Of a DNA stretch of 36,836 bases, positions 7,008-29,349 are shown in pieces. The stretch spans positions 1 through 36,836 of IMG/VR virus record IMGVR_UViG_3300025536_000026. The stretch is one strand, 5' to 3'. Position numbers and translations under genes: made by a program. The DNA is from a virus. Within the stretch, counting starts at the first letter, position 1; each line of letters begins with the position of its first letter. Under the pieces are notes generated by a model that was not told the origin of the DNA, ran no database searches, and worked only from the letters and a program-made list of their open reading frames with translations.

Positions 7008-7478
7008 TTATACTTTATTTAATAATGCGAACTCTCCGAAAAGTTCTAATGCTTTGGTGTTGTAGGCTTCCACAGCTAACTCTTTGGTAGAAAAATACCC
7101 TAAATGAATATGTTTATTTTTATTACTTATAAACGCACGCCATTTTTTATGATGAAAACCCACTCCTTTTAAACCAGAAGTATTATGTTTAGATAATGGT
7201 ATGTTCCCAGAGTTTTGTTTCCTTGTACAAGTTCTAAGATTTTCTTTTCTGTTATCTAATTTATTTAAGTTTATATGGTCTGTCTGTTTACCTACTGGAG
7301 TATTTGCTACTATCCTATGCATATAAATTGTTTTACCTTTCTTTGTTTTTGGATTCCAAACAGAACGAGAAGCATATCCTATTCCCGATAAATACCAAGT
7401 ATATTTAGAAAACTCATCATATAGTAAATCGTCTATAATTGCATATTTATTTGTTTTTTTTAATCTAATTTTTTTCAT
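7008..7478 (-). CDS. HNH homing endonuclease with AP2 DNA-binding domain
   Basis: This 156-residue protein has an HNH core around residues 55-95: YMHRIVANTP, then QTDHINLNKLDNRKENLR and the usual TCTRKQNSGN. A C-terminal AP2-type DNA-binding region follows (SGLKGVGFHHKKWRAFI, then LGYFSTKELAVEAYN). This domain pairing is common in free-standing phage homing endonucleases. It sits between the connector-like gene and the internal virion protein, four bases from the next start, as a mobile gene placed in an intergenic gap. The start has an AT-rich leader and no evident ribosome site. Confidence 0.88.
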   Translation of the reverse strand: MKKIRLKKTNKYAIIDDLLYDEFSKYTWYLSGIGYASRSVWNPKTKKGKTIYMHRIVANTPVGKQTDHINLNKLDNRKENLRTCTRKQNSGNIPLSKHNTSGLKGVGFHHKKWRAFISNKNKHIHLGYFSTKELAVEAYNTKALELFGEFALLNKV

Positions 7479-16176: not shown

Positions 16177-16674
16177 CTAACGAAGCAAGGGAAGTTTAGG
16201 TTTTTTAAGACAATGATATGACATATGCTCACCATTATTTTTAAATAACTGTAAGTTTTCTAGCCGATTATCATTGACTATTTCGTTTATATGATGGACA
16301 ACTTCTTTAGGGTGCAAGTAGCGACCTAAGTGTTTTTCCATTACTAAACGATGTTCGGGAACATAACCTTGTTTATTGCGATTGGGATGTTCAGGTGTCC
16401 AAATTAAGATATAACCAGACTCCTTAATTTTTATTCCACCTTTCCACATTGGATGTTTTTCTCCAATTAAATGGGTCTTGCCTTTGTTCCAAGCTATCTG
16501 TAGCCCTTTAGTACCTGTATTCCAAGGTTTATTTCCTTTTGGAAAATCACAAACCTTATGCATACATTCCCTAGAACAAAATTTAGATAACGCCCAGTTC
16601 TTTAGCGAACAATTTACTTTTTTCTCAAAGAAAAAGAACTTATCACACACTAAACACTTCTTTTTTTGTTTCAT
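16177..16674 (-). CDS. HNH endonuclease with N-terminal zinc-binding motif
   Basis: This 165-residue protein carries CLVCDKFFFF near residue 8 and CSRECMHKVC near residue 33, a Cys-rich N-terminal zinc site. The HNH core follows at ~107-142: VPEHRLVMEKHLGRYLHPKE, then VVHHINEIVNDNRLENLQLF. This is a common phage free-standing HNH homing endonuclease. It is inserted between the major capsid gene and the acidic 45-residue gene, a typical target area for such mobile genes. The upstream spacer contains a strong hairpin. Confidence 0.85.
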   Translation of the reverse strand: MKQKKKCLVCDKFFFFEKKVNCSLKNWALSKFCSRECMHKVCDFPKGNKPWNTGTKGLQIAWNKGKTHLIGEKHPMWKGGIKIKESGYILIWTPEHPNRNKQGYVPEHRLVMEKHLGRYLHPKEVVHHINEIVNDNRLENLQLFKNNGEHMSYHCLKKPKLPLLR

Positions 16675-16776: not shown

Positions 16777-17838
16777 TTATGATGTCCCATTCAAAGTTCC
16801 AAGGAGTCTTGGGTTTTCTGAGCAGAAGTTTCCAGCGAAAAGCAAATATCCTACCTGACTGAGCTGGTCTACTGGGGCTTTCATAACACGGAAATTGAAA
16901 CCACGAGTTGATGGCACATTACCTGGTACTCCTGTTGGTACAGCATTTGAAAGTTTCTTAAAGTTAAGAGTTTCATAATCCTGACCTGTGATACTTACAC
17001 CTTGCATACCGAAAGCTGTCTGGTTGGCGTAGATAAATTTACCTGATGGTACTTGCTCGTCTTTTACGACTGGCACACCTCTGTAAGTAATCGCACGGAA
17101 ACCTTGAGTTCCGAAAGCATTAGACTTTGAGTCCATTAACATACCGTATTGGTCGTAGTTTGGAGCTGCGAAAGTCTGGAATGAAGCACGAAGTGTTGGT
17201 GTCAATAATGCTTCATAAGAAGACCATAGAGTCTTAGTGGTTAGCATTACTGTTGGCTCGTCCATACCTACTGTTACTGCGTCAAAACCTGTCGCAAGTT
17301 TTGTAAGAGTCAAAGCTCCTGTACTTGCTAGGTAGTAACCGTCAATAGATGAGTATGTAGAACGAGACAATCCACCATAAGTAGCGTAAACTGTCGAATC
17401 TGCTGCTGCGTTTGCAAGAGAATCCCAAGAAGTGCCTACGCCTGTTCCTTGGTAAAGGTTATTAGCCATTACGTTTAAGAGAGACTTTGCTTGTGTATCA
17501 AATTCTGCTTCCAAAAGCTGAACAACTTGTTCATCTCCTTTGTTAAGTGTTACTTCGATGTCTGCTACGACTACTGGCTTGTAAGCCATCTTTACTTCAA
17601 AGTCCATAGAAACACGAGTGTTCTGTCGGTCTGAATCAAGTTGGTTGGCGATACCAGTATTACCGCCGTTTGTTGTGTCTTGGTACTGAATGACTGGAGC
17701 ATAGGAAGTTCCTGATGTCCAAGCCTTTGCAGTACGCATAAAGGTCATAAGACCTGGTGTTCCAAGAGTAACTGTATCGAATATCTTTTTAGGGATAGCT
17801 TTACGGGTTACGGTTGTCACTGCTGCGGAAAATTGCAT
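16777..17838 (-). CDS. major capsid protein (HK97-fold likely)
   Basis: This 353-residue protein follows the scaffold gene by four bases. It has the composition and order of HK97-fold capsid proteins. An N-terminal arm is followed by helical and beta segments such as VQLLEAEFDTQAKSLLNVMA (spine-helix-like), then FDAVTVGMDEPTVMLTTKTL and FRAITYRGVPVVKDEQVPSG (the common GVPVV-D-xxP pattern). The end is rich in Asn, Phe and Gly. It would assemble the procapsid with the portal and scaffold. The start has only an A-rich leader. Confidence 0.82.
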   Translation of the reverse strand: MQFSAAVTTVTRKAIPKKIFDTVTLGTPGLMTFMRTAKAWTSGTSYAPVIQYQDTTNGGNTGIANQLDSDRQNTRVSMDFEVKMAYKPVVVADIEVTLNKGDEQVVQLLEAEFDTQAKSLLNVMANNLYQGTGVGTSWDSLANAAADSTVYATYGGLSRSTYSSIDGYYLASTGALTLTKLATGFDAVTVGMDEPTVMLTTKTLWSSYEALLTPTLRASFQTFAAPNYDQYGMLMDSKSNAFGTQGFRAITYRGVPVVKDEQVPSGKFIYANQTAFGMQGVSITGQDYETLNFKKLSNAVPTGVPGNVPSTRGFNFRVMKAPVDQLSQVGYLLFAGNFCSENPRLLGTLNGTS

Positions 17839-18685: not shown

Positions 18686-20695
18686 TTATTCAGTTTCTAC
18701 TTCAGGTTGTTCGGCTAGCATTTGGCTTCGTTCACTCATAACTTGACTATGCTCTTGCCCTTTTTCTTTTAAGCCAAATTCTTTATTTCCCTGCTCACGT
18801 TCTGCTATCTTTTCAGCTATTAGTATATTTGGGTCAGCTTGTATTCCTATTTGAGCTAGTAATTGAACTTGTGCGTCTGGTGGTAAATCTTTATAACTTA
18901 TTGTTACATTCGGTGGTTTCTCTTCCTTTTGAGGAGGAGCAAGTTCAGCTAATTCTTCAGGAGTGATACCTACAGCTACATTAGGGTTAATCTTGTAAAC
19001 TTGTGCATCTTTGGCTAAATCTTTAGGGTTGTTATACCCAGCTTCTTCAAAGTAATCTATTGGAGAGATAAGTCCAGCTTCCACATCTTTTTGGGCTCGT
19101 TCAAATCTAAACTCTGCATCTACTGGAAGGGTTTTGCCTGGAGTTACCTGCACTTCGCTTCCTGTTTCAAAGTCATCCTGAATAAGGTCAAGCACTTCAG
19201 TAGCACTTTCTTTGCCTATCCACTTAGCATAGTGATATTCGGTGTAGCTTGTTTTAGCTAATTGATAGAACCAAGCAAATAGTTCTTGTGAAACATAGTC
19301 ATTTACTTGTACAAGCTCATTTAAGCGTAAGAATGATTGTTGGATAAGAGCTAGTCTGCCTGCTTTGGTTTCTTGTCCTTCTCGTTCACCTCTAAATGCA
19401 GAAGAAGCCGCCATGATATTATCAATCTCACTTCGACTATCTAACATATCTTCCATTACCATTGCTGGAAGTGGCTCACCTGTTTCACGTGCAACACCAG
19501 CTACCACTCCTTTACCCCATATAATGCCTTTTGCTTCACAGGCTAAAGACTGTGCATCTGCTTTACCCATGACTTCGCTATCTACCTTGATAACTCCGTT
19601 TACTAACTCACAGTTTTGTCCGATGTCTTGTTTACGCTTATCTATACTCATCTGTAAAGGGATAGACAGAGTTATAAAGTCAGTTCTACCTATCGGGGTG
19701 CTTTCGTTGTTGAGAATTGTAGCAAAAATGTAAGGTTTTCGAGGCTGATTAAAGTAGTTGAAATTGTATGCCTTGTAAGTTTGCGGCTCGGTGTGTCCTT
19801 CATTTGGTGGGATTTCGCCTTCTACGCCTTGTGGAGCGTTAGTTTCTACTTCAGGGCTAGGCTGTCTATTACTTTGCTTTAATTTCGCTTGGGTGAATAC
19901 TGCTCGCCTATCTTCGCCATAACTAGCGTTTATTTGCTGTTCTTCTTCGTCAGTTATGAGCATCCCATCCCAATCCCAATAAGGATTACGAATAGTGTCT
20001 AAGATTATATTGTCGTATTTAAATATTACATAATCGCCTAGCCACGCTTCTTTGTATTTGACTTCAGGGTTCATTATGTAGGCTTGGTCTTCGGTTTCTT
20101 CAGTAAAACCACTCTTTTCTAGGATTTCCTTTTTCTTTTTAGGGAAGCGAGCTACCAAAGCACAGAGATTATCAGGGATTTCTTCAATAGCAAACTCGCT
20201 TTCTTCTTCTTTTCTAGCTGTTTTGCCAAATCTTACATTTCTAGGGTCTATCGCCTTGACATCAAAGTCGTTGATTTTAGCGTTCCAAAAGGGTTTTAGA
20301 ACAATTAAACGCCCGAAATATAGGTTTCTCAAGCCCATTCTCATAGTTTCTTTGACATTCAAGTCCCCATACTTCTTTCTAAAGTAGCCTTCTAGTTTTC
20401 GAGCTAGATTTTCGCTTTGTGGGTCCTCCCTTCCAGGAATAAAGTTAATGCCTGGAGGATTAGCGATTACAGAGTTGATTACCGCTTCCATATTTGGAGT
20501 TATGCGGTTCGCCATTACCTTTTGAATGGTTACAGGTACTTGTTCTAGCCACTCTGGTTTGTTCTCGTAGACCTTAGTGTTTATCTCGTAGGTCTTTTTT
20601 ACTACTTGCCAAACTGAATCAGATGAGTTCCACCTGTTTTCTACAAGTTTTGCTTTGTCTCCATCTGAAAGTTTTGATATGTTTGTTTTTGCCAT
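18686..20695 (-). CDS. portal protein
   Basis: This 669-residue protein lies after the large terminase and before the scaffold. It has portal-like features: an N-terminal helical region, VDKRKQ-like and FITLSIPLQMSIDKRKQ segments in the middle, a helical stretch around residues 430-500 (SFLRLNELVQVNDYVSQELF), and a Gln/Glu-rich C-terminal tail. It would form the dodecameric ring through which DNA enters and leaves. It is long for a siphovirus portal and fits P22- or podovirus-like sizes. A promoter and hairpin precede it. Confidence 0.8.
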   Translation of the reverse strand: MAKTNISKLSDGDKAKLVENRWNSSDSVWQVVKKTYEINTKVYENKPEWLEQVPVTIQKVMANRITPNMEAVINSVIANPPGINFIPGREDPQSENLARKLEGYFRKKYGDLNVKETMRMGLRNLYFGRLIVLKPFWNAKINDFDVKAIDPRNVRFGKTARKEEESEFAIEEIPDNLCALVARFPKKKKEILEKSGFTEETEDQAYIMNPEVKYKEAWLGDYVIFKYDNIILDTIRNPYWDWDGMLITDEEEQQINASYGEDRRAVFTQAKLKQSNRQPSPEVETNAPQGVEGEIPPNEGHTEPQTYKAYNFNYFNQPRKPYIFATILNNESTPIGRTDFITLSIPLQMSIDKRKQDIGQNCELVNGVIKVDSEVMGKADAQSLACEAKGIIWGKGVVAGVARETGEPLPAMVMEDMLDSRSEIDNIMAASSAFRGEREGQETKAGRLALIQQSFLRLNELVQVNDYVSQELFAWFYQLAKTSYTEYHYAKWIGKESATEVLDLIQDDFETGSEVQVTPGKTLPVDAEFRFERAQKDVEAGLISPIDYFEEAGYNNPKDLAKDAQVYKINPNVAVGITPEELAELAPPQKEEKPPNVTISYKDLPPDAQVQLLAQIGIQADPNILIAEKIAEREQGNKEFGLKEKGQEHSQVMSERSQMLAEQPEVETE

Positions 20696-21072: not shown

Positions 21073-22651
21073 ATTTAAGTTTATCAAAATATTCACTCCA
21101 CTTTCCAACTTTGTTATCGTCAGATATTATTTGATAAGGTTTAGGTGTTTCAGGTAAAAATGTTCCATTACCTTGTGATGCTACGGCTAAACGGTAGAAT
21201 AGCGAAGCAAAAACTAAATGGTCTTCTGTTGTTATACTCTGCCACTTAAACATTTCAATACCTTTAGCATTCGTTTCTTTTACTCTACGCAAGTTTTCAA
21301 AATGTTTTATGTAAAGTAGAAAGTCTTTATTACTTGGCACACCTATTAAGAATTTCGCTTGTACCATATCGTCAATTAACATATCAATACTTCTATCTCG
21401 GTGAGTATAAACTATACCCTTCTTATCATTGTCTCCATACCAAACTACAAGCTGGGGATTATTAGCGTTCTCTTGTGGATACCACATCAAAGCATCTCGG
21501 TAAGTCTTTACAAAGTATTTAGACATTGTACTGTCAGGCAAGGCGTCAATCACTAGCTTTGGCTTGTAGAACTTCATCATATCGTCTAGCACACTCCATT
21601 CTGTAAATTTACCTACTTTGACTATGCCTAGCTCACTTCCTAATACAAAGTGTTTTACATTTCCTACGTCAACACCCAAAAACCAATTACCTGTTACCAA
21701 GTCTTTTGGTGTCCAAAGGTCTAGTATTGTGGTTCGTGAAACAGTTAAGTCACCAGGGTTATATGGTTCACCTAGAACAAAGTTATGAAAATACTCTTGG
21801 TCGCATTCACTATCTTCCAACACCTCTTTAGCTGTTAGCTTAGTGGCTATTAAGTGAGATAAATGCCATCCTGATACATCGTATTTAGGATTAAGCTTGC
21901 CACGCCACACTTCGCCATCTTGGTTTATCCATCTGCCTTTACGCCTCACATCATCGCTGATAGGCTCTTTACAAGCCTTGCAGATATAGATTTTCTTCTC
22001 TTTATCAAAGCTATCAGGAAAGGTTAGATAGTGTTCGTCCTTACATTTAGAACAAGTTATATGCCATTCTTTCATGTCAGACTTTTGCCATTCTAGGTCA
22101 AGCACATCTCTTTCAGTAGTAGGGTTAGAGAATAGCCAGCGTCCTTTATATGTAGAGTCCTTAGTACGAGATTTATAAGTGTTTAGAGCTTCTTGGTTAG
22201 AGCGACTAGCTTCATCGTGGATTAGTAGGTCTGCTGAAGTGGAAATAGCTGCCGAACGAGATACTGTTCCTTTAAAGAAAATAGAGCGTCCATTTATGTC
22301 TTTTCTTTCAATGTTATCTGTTTGTATGCCTTTAAATGCTTGAGGGTTAGAGCCAAGTATTCGGTTAGTCTTTGTGCCTACAAATTCTCTAACGTCCTCA
22401 TCTGTCGGCATTGTGTAGATTATGTTCCACTTGAACTTATCACAAGCGAATAGAGCTTTATAGTTATAGGTAAGACTTTTCCCCACCTGCGAACAAGCCT
22501 TTACTGCTTGGTTTTTACTCCAGTCTGTAAGAATATCAAGAAGAAAAGCATGGTCTTTAAAGTCCAATGGTTCGCCTTTCTCACTGGTAATTCCGTTAGA
22601 AAATAGCCAGTGAAGTATTGAATATTCTTTTACATCTGGTTCATTTTGCAT
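21062..22651 (-). CDS. terL: terminase large subunit (GpA-like)
   Basis: This 529-residue ATP-driven packaging motor and DNA-cutting enzyme has a Walker A-type SQVGKS at residues 54-59 and Walker B LLIHDE with Asp146/Glu147. A zinc motif of two CxxC pairs (Cys200/203 and Cys224/227) lies between the ATPase and nuclease, a hallmark of lambda GpA-type terminases. The nuclease domain has GVDVG (Asp328) and LVIDA (Asp369), and a later DHLVFASLF provides the third acidic residue. It overlaps its neighbours by 11 bases on both sides. It acts with the portal and the small subunit at 25690-26181. Confidence 0.93.
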   Translation of the reverse strand: MQNEPDVKEYSILHWLFSNGITSEKGEPLDFKDHAFLLDILTDWSKNQAVKACSQVGKSLTYNYKALFACDKFKWNIIYTMPTDEDVREFVGTKTNRILGSNPQAFKGIQTDNIERKDINGRSIFFKGTVSRSAAISTSADLLIHDEASRSNQEALNTYKSRTKDSTYKGRWLFSNPTTERDVLDLEWQKSDMKEWHITCSKCKDEHYLTFPDSFDKEKKIYICKACKEPISDDVRRKGRWINQDGEVWRGKLNPKYDVSGWHLSHLIATKLTAKEVLEDSECDQEYFHNFVLGEPYNPGDLTVSRTTILDLWTPKDLVTGNWFLGVDVGNVKHFVLGSELGIVKVGKFTEWSVLDDMMKFYKPKLVIDALPDSTMSKYFVKTYRDALMWYPQENANNPQLVVWYGDNDKKGIVYTHRDRSIDMLIDDMVQAKFLIGVPSNKDFLLYIKHFENLRRVKETNAKGIEMFKWQSITTEDHLVFASLFYRLAVASQGNGTFLPETPKPYQIISDDNKVGKWSEYFDKLKYEK

Positions 22652-23000
22652 AATTAACCTTAGTTTTAATTTCTTTGCCTATCCAGTCTATTCTTTTGCC
22701 ACGGGGAACTAGTGGCACTCCTTCAGTTCGTCTATTGTCTCTGGGAAATAAGTCTTCATACTCACATCTTTGACGAGGATTTACTGTAATTTGTTGAGGA
22801 TATTTTCCTCCGTGAGATTTAACATACTTTTCAAGTCTAAGTTTTAGTTTACCAAAAGAGTTTACTTTTAAAGCGTTCGGCAAGACTAATTCCATAAAGA
22901 AATTGCCACCATAAATTACATAATTATTGATTTCATTATTAAGCACTTTTTGAGTTGTAGCTGTTACAAATTTATTCCACTTAAAACCTTTAGTTTTCAT
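22641..23000 (-). CDS. unknown protein between GroEL and large terminase
   Basis: The ATG at 23000 (MKTKGFKWNKFVTATTQKVL, 119 residues) overlaps the GroEL stop by 11 bases; a start at 23036 would overlap by 47. The product is basic and mixed alpha/beta, ending KRIDWIGKEIKTKVNYAK. It also overlaps the terminase start by 11 bases. No domain is recognised. Its place in the chaperonin-packaging cluster suggests a packaging or assembly helper. Confidence 0.6.
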   Translation of the reverse strand: MKTKGFKWNKFVTATTQKVLNNEINNYVIYGGNFFMELVLPNALKVNSFGKLKLRLEKYVKSHGGKYPQQITVNPRQRCEYEDLFPRDNRRTEGVPLVPRGKRIDWIGKEIKTKVNYAK

Positions 23001-24567
23001 TAGTTTGCTTCTCTGGAAACTCCGCACAGAACACATCTAAACTAGCGAAGATACTAGCGATAGATATAGCTGTTTCAAGTGCGATTCGTTCCACTTTATA
23101 AGGGTCAATAATGCCTGCCTCAAACATATTCACTAGCTTTTTAGATTTGAAATCATAGCCCATGTCGTAATTAGTTTCGTAGTGAGAATGCGTGGTAAGT
23201 TTTTTGATAGTGTCCTTCTTCCAAAAGCCTTGGTTCATTCCTGCATTCTTTTCCATTTGCTTGAAAGGTGCTAGTAATGCTTTTTTAAACATAGGGTCAT
23301 CATGAAGTTTAGACACTCGAACTAAATCAGAACCACCACCTGCGACAATACCCTCATCTAAAGCTAACATTGTAGAGTTCACAGAGTCTTCAATCTTATC
23401 TCGCTTTAGTCTTTGCTCATCTACTGTGAAAGAACCTACTCTTATCACTCCTATACCACTTGTAAGCCCTGCTAGGCGTTCTTCTGCTACCTTTCGATCA
23501 TATTCTACTGTTTTCTCTATAACCCCCTTTATAACGCCAATACGTTCGTTTAATAGGGTTTCGTCAGCTTTACCGCCTGATACTATGGTTTCGTCTTTGG
23601 TTACGATGATAGAGTTAGCTTGTCCTAACACTTCGGTGCCTACTTTGTCTAGGAACATTCCTGCTTCTTCACTTACTACTTTCCCACCTGTTAGCACAGC
23701 TAAGTCAGTTAAAAAGTCTTTTTGTTGTTGTCCTTTGAAAGGAGCTTGGACACAGGCAATATTCATAGCCCTGCGTTGATGATTGATGATGAAAGACGCT
23801 AAAGCCTCGCCTTCAATGTCTAAGGCGACTACAAGCAAATCAGTTCTACCCTCTTTTACCATAGCTTCTAAGATGTTCTTTATTTGAAAGTTAGTGGCTA
23901 TTCTTCGGTCGGCGATTAAGATATATGGCGTAGTTAAAACACATCTGTTCTTTTCAGGGTCGTTGATAAAGTGTTCAGAGATTAAGCCCTTTTTAAATCT
24001 CATACCCTTAACAGTTTCAAGGGTTAGTTCTACTTTGTTGCTGTCTTCTACTGTGATTACTCCGTTTCTGCCTAACTCTTTAATAGCTTTAGCGATTATG
24101 TCAGCTACTTCTTCATCTAGGCTTTCTGTTAAGGCAAGGCGTTTTATGTCCTCGTCTTTTACTTCACGCTTTAGAGTAGATAGAATTTCCAAAGTCTTTT
24201 TAAGCCCATTCTCTAAGCGTTCTACAATCTCTCGTTGGTCTTTGCCTTTCTTAATCTCTTTGTAGGCTTCATTAGCAAAGGCTCTAGCAAGGACAGCAGA
24301 GGTTGTTCTACCTGAACCTGCTTTGTGGTGCATTTTATTAACTATCTTTCGCATTAAACGATTACCCATTTGCTCCCAGCGGTCTTCGATATCAATCATA
24401 TTAAGGATTTTAGCCCCGTCATCAGCAAAGATTGGGTCAAGATGTCCTGCGTCAAGGATAGCCTTTTTCCCTATTACCCCTAAAGTGGGCGAAACACAGT
24501 CAGTTACTTTGTTTATACCTGTTAGTATTCTCTTACTTCCATCATTTCCAAATTTAAGTATTTTCAT
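22990..24567 (-). CDS. groEL: phage GroEL-like chaperonin
   Basis: This 525-residue chaperonin is close to full bacterial length (~545). Recognisable segments are SPTLGVIGKKAILDAG (nucleotide site), FADDGAKI (Asp of the Asp52 site kept), FLTDLAVLTGGKVVSEEAGM (apical domain), LAGLTSGIGVIRVG, ALDEGIVAGGG, and a C-terminal GIIDPYKVERIALETA. The conserved AGDGTTTATVL loop reads AGSGRTTSAVL, so the catalytic Asp87 equivalent is Ser85 and Thr89 is Arg87. The C-terminus lacks the usual GGM repeats. It is TAATG-coupled to the GroES-like gene and would fold capsid or other phage proteins. Confidence 0.92.
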   Translation of the reverse strand: MKILKFGNDGSKRILTGINKVTDCVSPTLGVIGKKAILDAGHLDPIFADDGAKILNMIDIEDRWEQMGNRLMRKIVNKMHHKAGSGRTTSAVLARAFANEAYKEIKKGKDQREIVERLENGLKKTLEILSTLKREVKDEDIKRLALTESLDEEVADIIAKAIKELGRNGVITVEDSNKVELTLETVKGMRFKKGLISEHFINDPEKNRCVLTTPYILIADRRIATNFQIKNILEAMVKEGRTDLLVVALDIEGEALASFIINHQRRAMNIACVQAPFKGQQQKDFLTDLAVLTGGKVVSEEAGMFLDKVGTEVLGQANSIIVTKDETIVSGGKADETLLNERIGVIKGVIEKTVEYDRKVAEERLAGLTSGIGVIRVGSFTVDEQRLKRDKIEDSVNSTMLALDEGIVAGGGSDLVRVSKLHDDPMFKKALLAPFKQMEKNAGMNQGFWKKDTIKKLTTHSHYETNYDMGYDFKSKKLVNMFEAGIIDPYKVERIALETAISIASIFASLDVFCAEFPEKQTNEN

Positions 24568-24806
24568 TATGCTTTCATAATTATATCTTCAAGTTTTACG
24601 ACCTTCATAGTTTCTCCGTCTATGGTTACATCTTCGCCACTGCCTTTGAGGAATATAACTTTTGTTCCTATATCTAAGTCAAACTCACAAGATACTGGTG
24701 TTCTAACCACTTCACCCTTGTAAGTAAAACTGTCTTGCACATTAGCATAAGATACAGCACCTTCTTCTTCTTGAACTCTTTTTAGTAAATAGTAGTCGTT
24801 ATACAT
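24567..24806 (-). CDS. groES: GroES-like co-chaperonin
   Basis: This 79-residue protein matches the GroES barrel: YLLKRV at the start, YKGEVVRTPV, DIGTKVIFLKGSG-type strands, then DGETMKVVKLEDIIMKA, which parallels the family ending. It is shorter than E. coli GroES (97 residues). The segment between the first strand and YKGEVV replaces the mobile loop, and no clear GGI[VIL]L motif is present, so its docking to GroEL may differ. It ends as TAATG with the groEL start, confirming a co-translated pair. Confidence 0.82.
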   Translation of the reverse strand: MYNDYYLLKRVQEEEGAVSYANVQDSFTYKGEVVRTPVSCEFDLDIGTKVIFLKGSGEDVTIDGETMKVVKLEDIIMKA

Positions 24807-24808
24807 AA

Positions 24809-24937
24809 TTATTTTGATTCTAAAATTTCTATTCTTTTAATTAAATTAAGTAATTTTTCAGACAATTTTTCTACATCTTCTTTTTTTGCTACTTCGCTCC
24901 ATCGTTCAGGAATCCAATCTTCACTATTTCTTTCCAT
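24809..24937 (-). CDS. 42-residue helical small protein
   Basis: The ATG at 24937 lies inside the end of the upstream zinc-ribbon gene, and the TAA sits two bases before the GroES start (TAATTATG). The 42-residue product starts MERNSEDWIPERWSEVAKKE and continues as one Leu/Glu/Lys heptad-like helix. It probably dimerises or binds a partner. No function is recognised. Its tight fit between two genes supports translation. Confidence 0.6.
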   Translation of the reverse strand: MERNSEDWIPERWSEVAKKEDVEKLSEKLLNLIKRIEILESK

Positions 24938-25316
24938 AAAGCATATCAAAGCCAGTTTCCTGTGGTTGCAATAAATCTAGCTTGTTTAAACGTCTATCCC
25001 GACAGACAGACGGACTTTTAATAAAAAACTTATCCTTAATCTTTTGACTAATTAAGCGAACATTCATTGTTCCACATTTATGTTTTGCCCTCCAGTGTCT
25101 AAATATACCTCCAGTGTTCCAGTCTTGTTGTTCTACTTTGACCACACGCTTAGGGAAGTAATCTACCTTGCATTTGTAGCAGTAGAATATGCTAGCGGGT
25201 AAGTCTTCATCTACATCATACTCCTTTTTAACAGCTTCTCTTTGAGCTTGAGTATCTCTTTCTTCCCAGACTTGATTAAGCCTATTCTCTAGTTTTACTA
25301 CATCAGGATGTTCCAT
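24924..25316 (-). CDS. zinc-ribbon protein, unknown role
   Basis: This 130-residue protein has a helical N-terminus (~residues 1-35) and a zinc-ribbon-like part with CYKC near residue 46 and HKC near residue 80, presumably binding one metal ion. A basic C-terminal segment follows. It belongs to the small-gene run between the terminase genes. It may bind nucleic acid or a packaging factor. The precise family is not known to me. Confidence 0.6.
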   Translation of the reverse strand: MEHPDVVKLENRLNQVWEERDTQAQREAVKKEYDVDEDLPASIFYCYKCKVDYFPKRVVKVEQQDWNTGGIFRHWRAKHKCGTMNVRLISQKIKDKFFIKSPSVCRDRRLNKLDLLQPQETGFDMLYGKK

Positions 25317-25317
25317 A

Positions 25318-25491
25318 TTATTTTCCTTTATAATCTCTCATATATTGCCAACTTAAGATTGTATTAGTTGGGTCTGGTAATAAGTGGTAACCTTTATACT
25401 CGGTATTCCTATTAGGTTTAAGCATCAACTCTCTAATGTCTTCGTCTACTTCTTGTAGAAGTTTTTCTACGATTTCGTTGTGAAGTTTCAT
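25318..25491 (-). CDS. 57-residue small protein
   Basis: The ATG at 25491 overlaps the stop of the upstream gene as TAATG, and the TAA at 25318 lies just before the next ATG. The 57-residue product starts with an acidic helix (MKLHNEIVEKLLQEVDEDIR) and ends with a Tyr/Pro-rich tail (EYKGYHLLPDPTNTILSWQ). It has no known domain. Coupling on both sides makes it a confident gene despite its size. Confidence 0.65.
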   Translation of the reverse strand: MKLHNEIVEKLLQEVDEDIRELMLKPNRNTEYKGYHLLPDPTNTILSWQYMRDYKGK

Positions 25492-25706
25492 TACTTTAAT
25501 TCTTTTAGCTTCTCTTGTAACTGTTTATACCAAGGTTGTTGATTCTTAATATATTCTTCATATTCTGGCTGTGTCATCATAGGTATAAAGATAGCTTTAC
25601 CATTACCAGTATTAGGAAGTTTCTCTATTTCTTCTAAAGAGATTTCATCTAAAGCGTTTAAGTTCTTTTTAGATAATTGCCAGAGTTTTTTAATTCTTGT
25701 CAGCAT
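25491..25706 (-). CDS. 71-residue protein next to small terminase
   Basis: This 71-residue protein has a basic N-terminal helix (MLTRIKKLWQLSKKNLNAL), a central segment GNGKAIFIPMMTQPEYEEYI, and a Lys/Gln-rich helical end. It overlaps the end of the small terminase gene by 17 bases. No family is recognised. Its location suggests a packaging-related accessory. Confidence 0.6.
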   Translation of the reverse strand: MLTRIKKLWQLSKKNLNALDEISLEEIEKLPNTGNGKAIFIPMMTQPEYEEYIKNQQPWYKQLQEKLKELK

Positions 25707-26181
25707 CTTTATTTAATATAAGGTTTTTAAGGTTTTCGTCAAAGTTTCTTATGTTCTGTTGGAATTTTGGCTCAAAAAAGAAGTTGTAAATATTAGCATC
25801 TTTTGGTTTTTCAGAATCTTCAACTCCATAAATATCTTTAGCGTGCTTTAAACCTTTGTCAATAGCTGTATAATCCTTTTTGCCTGTTTCTAAGTCTTCT
25901 GCATCTAATAAAACATTTATCTTATCTGCTATTTTATCTGGTGTAATTCCTTTTTTCTCAAGTGCAGATTTTAGAGTTTCTGTCTTAATTTCTATAGCTT
26001 TTACGACATTAGGTTTTGTTAAGTTTTCACTTGCTATTGCACGAGCTATATTTTCCTTGTCCTTTCCTTCTATATTGTAGTTATTCAAAGCTGATTCTTG
26101 ACCATTCCCACTTAATACATAATCTTTAACAAACCCTCTTTGTTTCTTAGTTAGTTTCGGGAGCTTCTTCGGTTTTTCCAT
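25690..26181 (-). CDS. terS: terminase small subunit
   Basis: The ATG at 26181 was chosen because GGAG lies six bases upstream; an in-frame ATG at 26193 has no such site. The 163-residue product contains LTKKQRGFVKDYVLSGNGQE and a helical region with ENIARAIASENLTKPNVVKA, the helix-turn-helix pattern of Terminase_2-type small subunits that recognise packaging sites. The C-terminal half is Lys/Asn-rich and includes NFFFEPKFQQNIRN. It is separated from the large subunit by about 3 kb of chaperonin and small genes, which is unusual. Confidence 0.78.
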   Translation of the reverse strand: MEKPKKLPKLTKKQRGFVKDYVLSGNGQESALNNYNIEGKDKENIARAIASENLTKPNVVKAIEIKTETLKSALEKKGITPDKIADKINVLLDAEDLETGKKDYTAIDKGLKHAKDIYGVEDSEKPKDANIYNFFFEPKFQQNIRNFDENLKNLILNKDADKN

Positions 26182-26416
26182 TATTGTCTCCATTTGCTAC
26201 GAAAGGTGTTGGTATACCTTTTATCTTTAATAAAAATAATCCTGCTGTTTGTGTTATTTCTTGTAGAGTTTCGACCTTTTTTATTACTGGGAGGTACTTA
26301 GCGTTGTACTTATCTAATACCGCAGCAATTTCTTTTTCTAGTGCTTCTTTTTCAACAGGTTCTAGTGTCGTTAACTCTGTACCATCTGTTAACTTTATAG
26401 TGTTTTCTTCTTTCAT
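26147..26416 (-). CDS. 89-residue protein upstream of small terminase
   Basis: This 89-residue protein has an acidic first half with a long helix (VEKEALEKEIAAVLDKYNAK), a hydrophobic helix (ITQTAGLFLLKIKGI), and an Asn/Gly/Thr-rich tail that overlaps the terS start. It has no recognised domain. It may be a small assembly or regulatory protein. Overlap with terS suggests co-translation. Confidence 0.55.
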   Translation of the reverse strand: MKEENTIKLTDGTELTTLEPVEKEALEKEIAAVLDKYNAKYLPVIKKVETLQEITQTAGLFLLKIKGIPTPFVANGDNNGKTEEAPETN

Positions 26417-28412: not shown

Positions 28413-28807
28413 AAAGTTATAAGTTTGTTTTCTAATAAGTAGATTAACATCTTTGCTCTAGCATCTGCTTCGGTGTTTTCTTGAAAATACTTAAGAAATT
28501 TACCAAAATCGGGATTTAGACCATAATAATATGATACACGGTACTTTAACTTTAACTTATTGCAACCTAACCACCACTTAAACGAAGAGTGGTTATCAAC
28601 TGGCAAATGCCCTGGCAGTAAGTTCCCCAACTCTGCGACAGAATAACAATTAACAGTATCAGGACAATAATCAGGAGTTTTATTTATTTCTATCTCGTTC
28701 TCTTTTGCTCCCTGCCATTCACGATAAAACATACTTGGAGCTGTTACTCCTAAAATGTGTAACTTGTTGCTTAATTCTACTGATGTAACTTGGTCTTGTA
28801 ATCTCAT
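28409..28807 (-). CDS. paralogue of the TYELAKKLKDAGF-type phage protein
   Basis: The ATG at 28807 overlaps the previous stop as ATGA; a GTG at 28819 is possible but less likely. The 132-residue product starts MRLQDQVTSVELSNKLHILG and contains FYREWQG, DYCPDTVNCYSVAELGNLLP and a terminal EADARAKMLIYLLENKLI, a motif I recall in many phage hypothetical proteins. It resembles the protein at 26427-26750, and its N-terminus resembles the start of the adjacent HNH gene. The function is unknown. Confidence 0.6.
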   Translation of the reverse strand: MRLQDQVTSVELSNKLHILGVTAPSMFYREWQGAKENEIEINKTPDYCPDTVNCYSVAELGNLLPGHLPVDNHSSFKWWLGCNKLKLKYRVSYYYGLNPDFGKFLKYFQENTEADARAKMLIYLLENKLITL

Positions 28808-29349
28808 ATATGTTTCCACTTCTTACGATTGATAATATCCGACACGGTTTGAATACTTACTTTAAATTGTTTAGCTAGTTCTTTTAAGGGCTTATGAGCA
28901 TTCCTCCTAATCAACACAACATCGTACTCAGTTAACTTCGCATTCCAGTGATTACGCCCTTTAGGAGAATACGTGAACCCGTTTTTAACAGCATGTGTTT
29001 TGTTTTCTGATGGTGTAGTCCATTCAAGGTTTCTAGCTTGATTATCGTACTTATTGCCGTTCTTGTGATTTACATAAGGTTTGTTCTCAGGGTTTTTTAT
29101 AAATGCCTGTGCTACTAACCTGTGTGTTGCAAATGTTCTGTACTTATTTTTATTAGACAAGCAAACACTTAAATAGAACCTACTTCTATTTTGTTTTAGA
29201 ACCCTGCCTGATGTAGTGTTTCTAGCTAGAGAACGAACTGCACCAAGATTACTAACTTCATAGAGTTTTTCGTAACCCAAAACGGCTTCCCGTTTCTCTT
29301 TTAGTTTCTTTGCAAGCTCTAGTGAGTAAACTTGGTTTTCTAGTTTCAT
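28804..29349 (-). CDS. HNH endonuclease (NUMOD4-type) fused to a captured gene start
   Basis: This 181-residue protein has a NUMOD4-like GYEKLYEVSNLGAVRSLAR, an HNH core with THRLVAQAFIKNPENKPYVN then HKNGNKYDNQARNLEWTTPS, and a helix-turn-helix end (LKELAKQFKVSIQTVSDIIN). Residues 1-18 (MKLENQVYSLELAKKLKE) are not typical of the endonuclease family but match the first residues of the adjacent gene at 28409-28807. The simplest reading is that a homing endonuclease inserted after the start of a duplicated copy. AAGAAG precedes the start. Confidence 0.82.
   Translation of the reverse strand: MKLENQVYSLELAKKLKEKREAVLGYEKLYEVSNLGAVRSLARNTTSGRVLKQNRSRFYLSVCLSNKNKYRTFATHRLVAQAFIKNPENKPYVNHKNGNKYDNQARNLEWTTPSENKTHAVKNGFTYSPKGRNHWNAKLTEYDVVLIRRNAHKPLKELAKQFKVSIQTVSDIINRKKWKHI

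Follow-up and report, generated by a model that had tools for sequence, protein, structure and literature searches.

The window, as the whole 36,836-base sequence studied here (an IMG/VR virus record) is called, carries on its minus strand a gene for a GroES-like co-chaperonin followed by one for a GroEL-like chaperonin (Table 1). The stop codon of groES and the start codon of groEL overlap in TAATG, and the gene calls of the original prediction, with their coordinates, a GroEL of near-full length and translational coupling of the pair, are thus correct. Family and structure searches concur on both identities. The GroEL matches PF00118 (E=2e-35), PHROG 5725 'chaperonin groEL' (E=8e-101) and, in a sequence search of solved structures, PDB GroEL (E~1e-95), and it is ~36% identical to E. 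coli GroEL over its whole length. Its AlphaFold2 model resembles GroEL/Hsp60, with a TM score of 0.84 to the human Hsp60 single ring 9shk (the best among the matches listed) and a Foldseek match to GroEL at E=9e-40. The model is ligand-free and of moderate confidence (mean pLDDT 76.5, below 50 at residues 39-49), and at residues 39-49 it is too uncertain for distances in the pocket to be read. The GroES matches PF00166 (E=9.5e-5), a match better than the family's cut-off demands, and a profile of the clade's GroES proteins matches Thermus cpn10 over the full length (E=8e-12); its own model (mean pLDDT 72.9) matches cpn10 structures at a TM(query) of ~0.70.

Table 1. Features of the chaperonin locus and its surroundings in the window.
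Feature	Position	Strand	Basis
GroEL-like chaperonin, 525 aa	22990..24567	-	PF00118, PHROG 5725, PDB GroEL, AlphaFold2 fold
GroES-like co-chaperonin, 79 aa	24567..24806	-	PF00166, clade profile against Thermus cpn10, model
GSGRTT loop, residues 84-89 (E. coli GDGTTT 86-91): D87 to Ser85, T89 to Arg87	24301..24318	-	alignments, codons
Asp49 codon, E. coli Lys51 (ADDG for TKDG), K51D	24421..24423	-	K51D in 41/41 clade members with data
Asp50 codon, E. coli Asp52, kept	24418..24420	-	alignments
Glu148 codon, E. coli Ser151, S151E	24124..24126	-	only in the window's clade
Asp394 codon, E. coli Asp398, kept; Asn in sister clade	23386..23388	-	alignments
GroES mobile-loop equivalent, residues 14-24, predicted disordered	24735..24767	-	pLDDT<50; aligns with cpn10 mobile loop
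130-aa conserved neighbour with paired cysteines, directly upstream of groES	24924..25316	-	homologue in the same place at every K51D-clade locus examined
71-aa conserved neighbour	25491..25706	-	homologue in most relatives examined
Small terminase subunit (terS), upstream	25690..26193	-	PF03592 E=1.5e-9; order kept in relatives
Large terminase subunit (TerL), downstream, 529 aa	21062..22651	-	PF05876 E=4e-17, PHROG 675 E=9e-68
Portal protein	18686..20695	-	PHROG 156 E=5e-11; 50-65% identical homologue in relatives
Major head protein, plausible client	16777..17838	-	PHROG 9953 E=6e-31

The full-length Cpn60 homology and fold, the adjacent GroES gene and the presence of Asp52 and Asp398 are those of a Group I chaperonin (GroEL/Cpn60), and membership of group II (thermosome/CCT) finds no support, since among the matches listed all sequences and folds are of group I and a GroES is present. 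The metal and phosphate ligand Asp87 of the GDGTT motif is nevertheless missing: the window has Ser85 in its place, and so does each of the five relatives that cover the site. A canonical ATPase is therefore not to be assumed, despite the Group I fold, the partner and most of the pocket residues.

In the HMMER alignment to solved GroELs, which is free of gaps around the loop, agsgrtt of the window faces agdgttt, and the longer stretch AGSGRTTSAVL likewise aligns with AGDGTTTATVL of E. coli without gaps. The alignment is thus unshifted, and the predicted equivalence of Ser85 to Asp87 and of Arg87 to Thr89 is right, as is the retention of the Asp52-type and Asp398-type sites (Asp50 and Asp394). 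The possibility raised at the outset that a shifted alignment would restore the Asp is ruled out by the same lack of gaps and by the invariance of G84, G86 and T89 in 13 aligned homologues. In E. coli numbering, the pocket reads T30 L31 G32 V33, D51 D52 G53, S87 G88 R89 T90 T91, T150 E151, D398, G414-G416 and D495; the equivalents of T90, T91, G415 and D495 are kept along with D52. On the alignments, two more pocket changes that had escaped the original prediction, Lys51 to Asp (Asp49) and Ser151 to Glu (Glu148), belong with Ser85 and Arg87.

The GSGRTT loop is also present in five relatives found by tblastn, namely L001, L002, L006, L007 and L021, at 86, 84, 80, 74 and 68% identity, respectively, while L003 and L106 are fragments that do not include the loop. 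The window encodes Ser85 with TCA and the four other sequences examined do so with AGT, two codons that are not interconvertible by one base change; the Arg87 codon is AGA or CGG. In pairwise comparisons, the stretch of residues 63-97 has 13-22 of its 35 codons changed but only 0-4 of its amino acids, and the whole-gene dN/dS is ~0.07-0.12 for the pairs with unsaturated dS. By these measures the chaperonin is under strong purifying selection, and few parts of it are as constrained as the pocket loop. With the motif read from five other contigs, its serine encoded in two ways and dN/dS low, both gene decay and a sequencing or assembly error, the latter a doubt attached to the Asp87 codon from the beginning, are ruled out for practical purposes.

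The comparison set comprised 89 distinct chaperonins from viral contigs and annotated phages, with E. coli GroEL included as a reference, which were scored at positions 51/52/87/89/90/398. The combination K/D/D/T/T/D is found in 39, and six more match it except at 51, where they have H, N or T, or at 89, where they have Ser; all 45 chaperonins that do not have K51D retain D87 and D398. Position 51, Asp throughout the K51D clade (Table 1), is K, H, N or T elsewhere. The window's own clade consists of five D/D/S/R/T/D sequences and one truncated before position 51, and D52 and D398 are invariant in it; the L106 fragment covers position 398 only, which is Asp. A sister clade of 35 sequences has 34 of the type D/D/D/T/A/N and one truncated before position 51. 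In two further proteins, L086 (D/D/D/T/T/D) and L051 (D/D/D/T/S/D), K51D is combined with an intact D87 and D398. The loss of Asp87 thus recurs in every close relative that covers the site and nowhere else among the 89 viral chaperonins, which answers the original prediction's question of whether relatives share it.

When positions that are otherwise conserved were scanned for changes specific to a clade, only D87S, T89R, S151E and V521C came up for the window's clade, and T90A, G282A, D398N and S509A for its sister. D87S and T89R occur in 6/6 members of the former, against Asp87 and Thr89 in 77/77 others, and S151E is likewise found in 6/6, with Ser in 76/77 elsewhere. Three of the four changes specific to the window's clade lie in or beside the pocket, so that change at conserved positions is centred on the nucleotide site, as is half of that in the sister clade. 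Judged by the aligned residues, the loss of Asp87 is one of a coordinated set, in which K51D was inherited and D87S, T89R and S151E were fixed together. The predicted chaperonin that lacks Asp87 and may handle ATP differently is thus upheld, with the correction that the loss does not stand alone in a normal pocket. The phages of the sister clade (L022, L044-L049 and others) have T90A and D398N throughout (D398N in 35/35), a natural counterpart of the E. coli mutant D398A, and this observation is as notable as the D87 finding itself.

In a tree built with the trait columns left out, the K51D proteins form a single clade (SH-aLRT 100), the window's clade and the D398N clade are each supported at 100, and K51D, the loss of D87 and the loss of D398 each require one change. 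A more careful tree with fewer rows supports the window's and D398N clades together at 100/99. L086 is the first branch of the K51D clade and L051 lies inside it, at an open fork with the other two groups; because both intermediates keep D87 and D398, K51D preceded the losses of Asp. A GSGRTT-type DNA pattern restricted to AGY serine codons was found in 0/60 genomes of one bacterial phylum, a very limited cellular control. When the clade alignment was run against genome contigs of bacteria and archaea, it gave one weak match, to an ordinary GroEL fragment.

The partner protein was originally described as having no recognisable mobile-loop motif, a description that is not supported, as the loop is divergent yet seems traceable. 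The mobile-loop equivalent has a divergent hydrophobic motif, is at the right position and is the sole segment of the GroES model with pLDDT below 50. Canonical viral homologues (L088, L091) have GLLL or GILL in this loop, L051 has GVSL, L086 has GIEL, the window has GAVSY and the sister clade has GF..V; sequence and model together indicate a path from GIVL to GAVSY that is bridged by GVSL and GIEL. On the GroEL side, the groove for GroES and substrate is partly altered in the window's clade (L234 to K in 6/6, Y203 to H, D or R), with V263 and V264 still aliphatic. Inter-ring contacts in E. coli include A109, R452-E461 and V464 (PMC3326522). In the window's clade A109 is K in 6/6, the E434 segment is deleted and R452, E461 and V464 are not kept; the inter-ring positions of E. 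coli vary in other viral chaperonins too.

Seven related virus records, of 39-43 kb, have chaperonin matches at one locus each, and the genomes of this phage family are ~37-43 kb. A GroES gene is present at every K51D-clade locus examined, and so is the order terS - 71 aa - 130 aa - GroES - GroEL - TerL - portal, with some members undetected; these loci include both intermediates, L086 and L051. The cysteine-containing 130-aa neighbour had no family match. This fixed place in the head and packaging block suggests a virion protein as the client of the chaperonin. Among annotated phages, the major head protein matches only three, a Saccharibacteria (TM7) phage, MW202566 and Myxococcus phage Mx9, of which the first two carry chaperonins too; the MW202566 chaperonin, used as the query in one search of viral contigs, gave no relatives. 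The window's major head protein is 30% identical to that of Saccharibacteria (TM7) phage MG269973, the bearer of a divergent chaperonin, a likeness that may serve as a lead to a Patescibacteria host.

Several other features of these genomes deserve mention. Two of the relatives have large terminases with intein-like insertions at two different sites (L001:2113-4695, 860 aa, and L021:5564-8113, 849 aa). The insertion in L001 starts with Cys, has an HPF motif and ends in ...VSN/C (the slash marking the junction), that in L021 has no Pfam intein match, and the 529-aa terminase of the window has no such insertion. The groEL and large terminase genes nearly touch in L001 and L006; in the window ~340 bases separate them, and a 131-aa open reading frame (22641-23036) overlaps the end of groEL. 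This frame has no family match, and the region is thus possibly a phage-specific insertion. The window also contains three HNH endonuclease genes (7008-7478, 16177-16674 and 28804-29349), probably free-standing elements of the homing type, and, near its left end, a gene for a DUF5675 domain protein (834-1745, E=1.3e-25).

The pair shares with E. coli GroEL/GroES the three-domain fold, the GroES partner and D52 and D398, and differs from it in K51D, D87S, T89R and S151E, in the missing GGM tail, in the deleted E434 segment, in the inter-ring and R197-E386 residues, which are not kept, and in the shortened GroES. The giant phages EL, OBP and AR9 also encode GroEL homologues, yet these act without a co-chaperonin, and the nucleotide pocket of the EL protein is highly conserved, Asp412 being its counterpart of D398 (PMC7185714, PMC9598537). 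The window differs from them in its altered pocket, its phage family with genomes of ~37-43 kb and the groES gene adjacent to groEL, here and in the relatives, which sets it apart from the co-chaperonin-independent class. T4 gp31 and RB49 CocO are phage GroES-like proteins that are similarly tied to the folding of phage proteins, but T4 uses the host GroEL while the phage of the window encodes a GroEL as well. The closest counterparts are the pairs of the sister clade, with the same locus, K51D and the GroES and terminase neighbours, which differ in keeping D87 and in fixing T90A and D398N. BBS6/BBS12 and chlamydial GroEL2/3 are chaperonin paralogues with lost ATPase motifs and an altered GDGTT region; they are cellular paralogues that exist beside a canonical chaperonin, and a shared origin with the protein of the window is not indicated.

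In structures of GroEL with ATP, Mg is bound by D87, and K+ by the hydroxyl of T90 together with the main chain of residue 51. Given these roles and that of D398, the changes in these phages fall on the residues that surround both metal ions and the water that attacks. The E. coli mutants D87N and D87K bind ATP, their ATPase is abolished, polypeptide release is blocked and the mutations are lethal (PMC3268035; D87K is also covered in PMC10723157), so that no hydrolysis is the default expectation for the protein of the window. D398A, on the other hand, binds ATP normally and, with 3% of the ATPase, encapsulates and folds (PMC3326522). The reading we favour, whose likelihood we put a little short of even, is that a phage Group I chaperonin and its own co-chaperonin fold virion proteins by means of a metal/phosphate site that was rewired stepwise. 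As the phylogeny shows, an ancestor first exchanged Lys51 for Asp, beside the catalytic Asp52 and with Asp87 and Asp398 still in place, after which the window's clade fixed Asp87 to Ser, Thr89 to Arg and Ser151 to Glu while Asp52, Thr90 and Asp398 stayed. The carboxylate at 51, possibly together with Glu at 151, may then replace Asp87 near the metal and phosphates, with Arg at 89 contacting the phosphates. Such a ring would remain able to bind ATP and to close with GroES; it would also hydrolyse ATP, probably at a low rate, the water being placed by Asp398. The narrower proposal that the metal carboxylate moved from 87 to 51 and/or 151, with Arg89 partly replacing metal-bridged phosphate contacts, would give a ligand set unlike that of all studied chaperonins; it is plausible, though on the whole we doubt it.

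In the model we favour, Asp51 was a spare carboxylate that came first and allowed another to be lost, D87 in the window's clade, where Glu151 and Arg89 were added, or D398 in its sister. The sister clade, in which Asp398 was lost and Asp87 kept on the same Asp51 background, fits this order, and the proposed connection of K51D with both losses draws on only two independent events. That every member of the window's clade keeps D52 and D398 suggests that the chemistry of hydrolysis is still under selection, and ATP may still be hydrolysed, probably at a low rate.

The main rival to a rewired site is a nearly one-shot cage gated by ATP binding, in which GroES closes the chamber, hydrolysis is abolished or negligible and the client is folded or stored once or very slowly, possibly in a single ring. 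It is a serious possibility that we nonetheless hold doubtful. The D87N/K mutants bind ATP without hydrolysing it and block polypeptide release (PMC3268035), D398A makes hydrolysis appear dispensable inside the cage (PMC3326522), and the sister clade has D398N by nature; the invariance of D52 and D398 in the window's clade would, however, be unexpected if hydrolysis were dispensable, and the added acidic residues of K51D and S151E look compensatory. The changes at the inter-ring residues could point to a single ring, but weakly so, because other viral chaperonins vary there as well. A holdase or assembly scaffold that works independently of nucleotide, its ATP pocket being vestigial, would explain why an Asp essential in E. 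coli could be lost and why the apical hydrophobic site is partly altered (L234, Y203). We consider it improbable, as constraint on the pocket loop ranks with the strongest in the protein, the equivalents of D52, T90, T91, G415 and D495 are kept, and GroES accompanies the gene at every locus examined in the K51D clade. It is more improbable still that the altered subunits target the host chaperonin, for instance by entering the rings of host GroEL and slowing them down. Subunits with a defective ATPase might, in principle, poison such mixed rings, but the 36% identity to E. coli GroEL, the phage's own GroES gene and the conserved link to packaging genes argue otherwise.

The chaperonin of the window is a real and conserved variant of a known machine, of which the literature search found no earlier description; none of the papers searched links a chaperonin of phages to Asp87 or to the GDGTT motif, and an earlier mention may exist. 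Asp87 and Asp398 have been regarded as indispensable for the chaperonin ATPase, and yet there are two sister clades that each miss one of them, together with surviving intermediates that have both as well as Asp51. An ATP pocket that was rebuilt stepwise and is conserved across relatives provides a natural experiment on what chaperonins need of ATP: with these proteins it can be asked whether the folding chamber requires hydrolysis or only binding of ATP, and whether the metal site can move. If the relocated metal site is true, two sister lineages would have arrived at different solutions from one permissive K51D ancestor.
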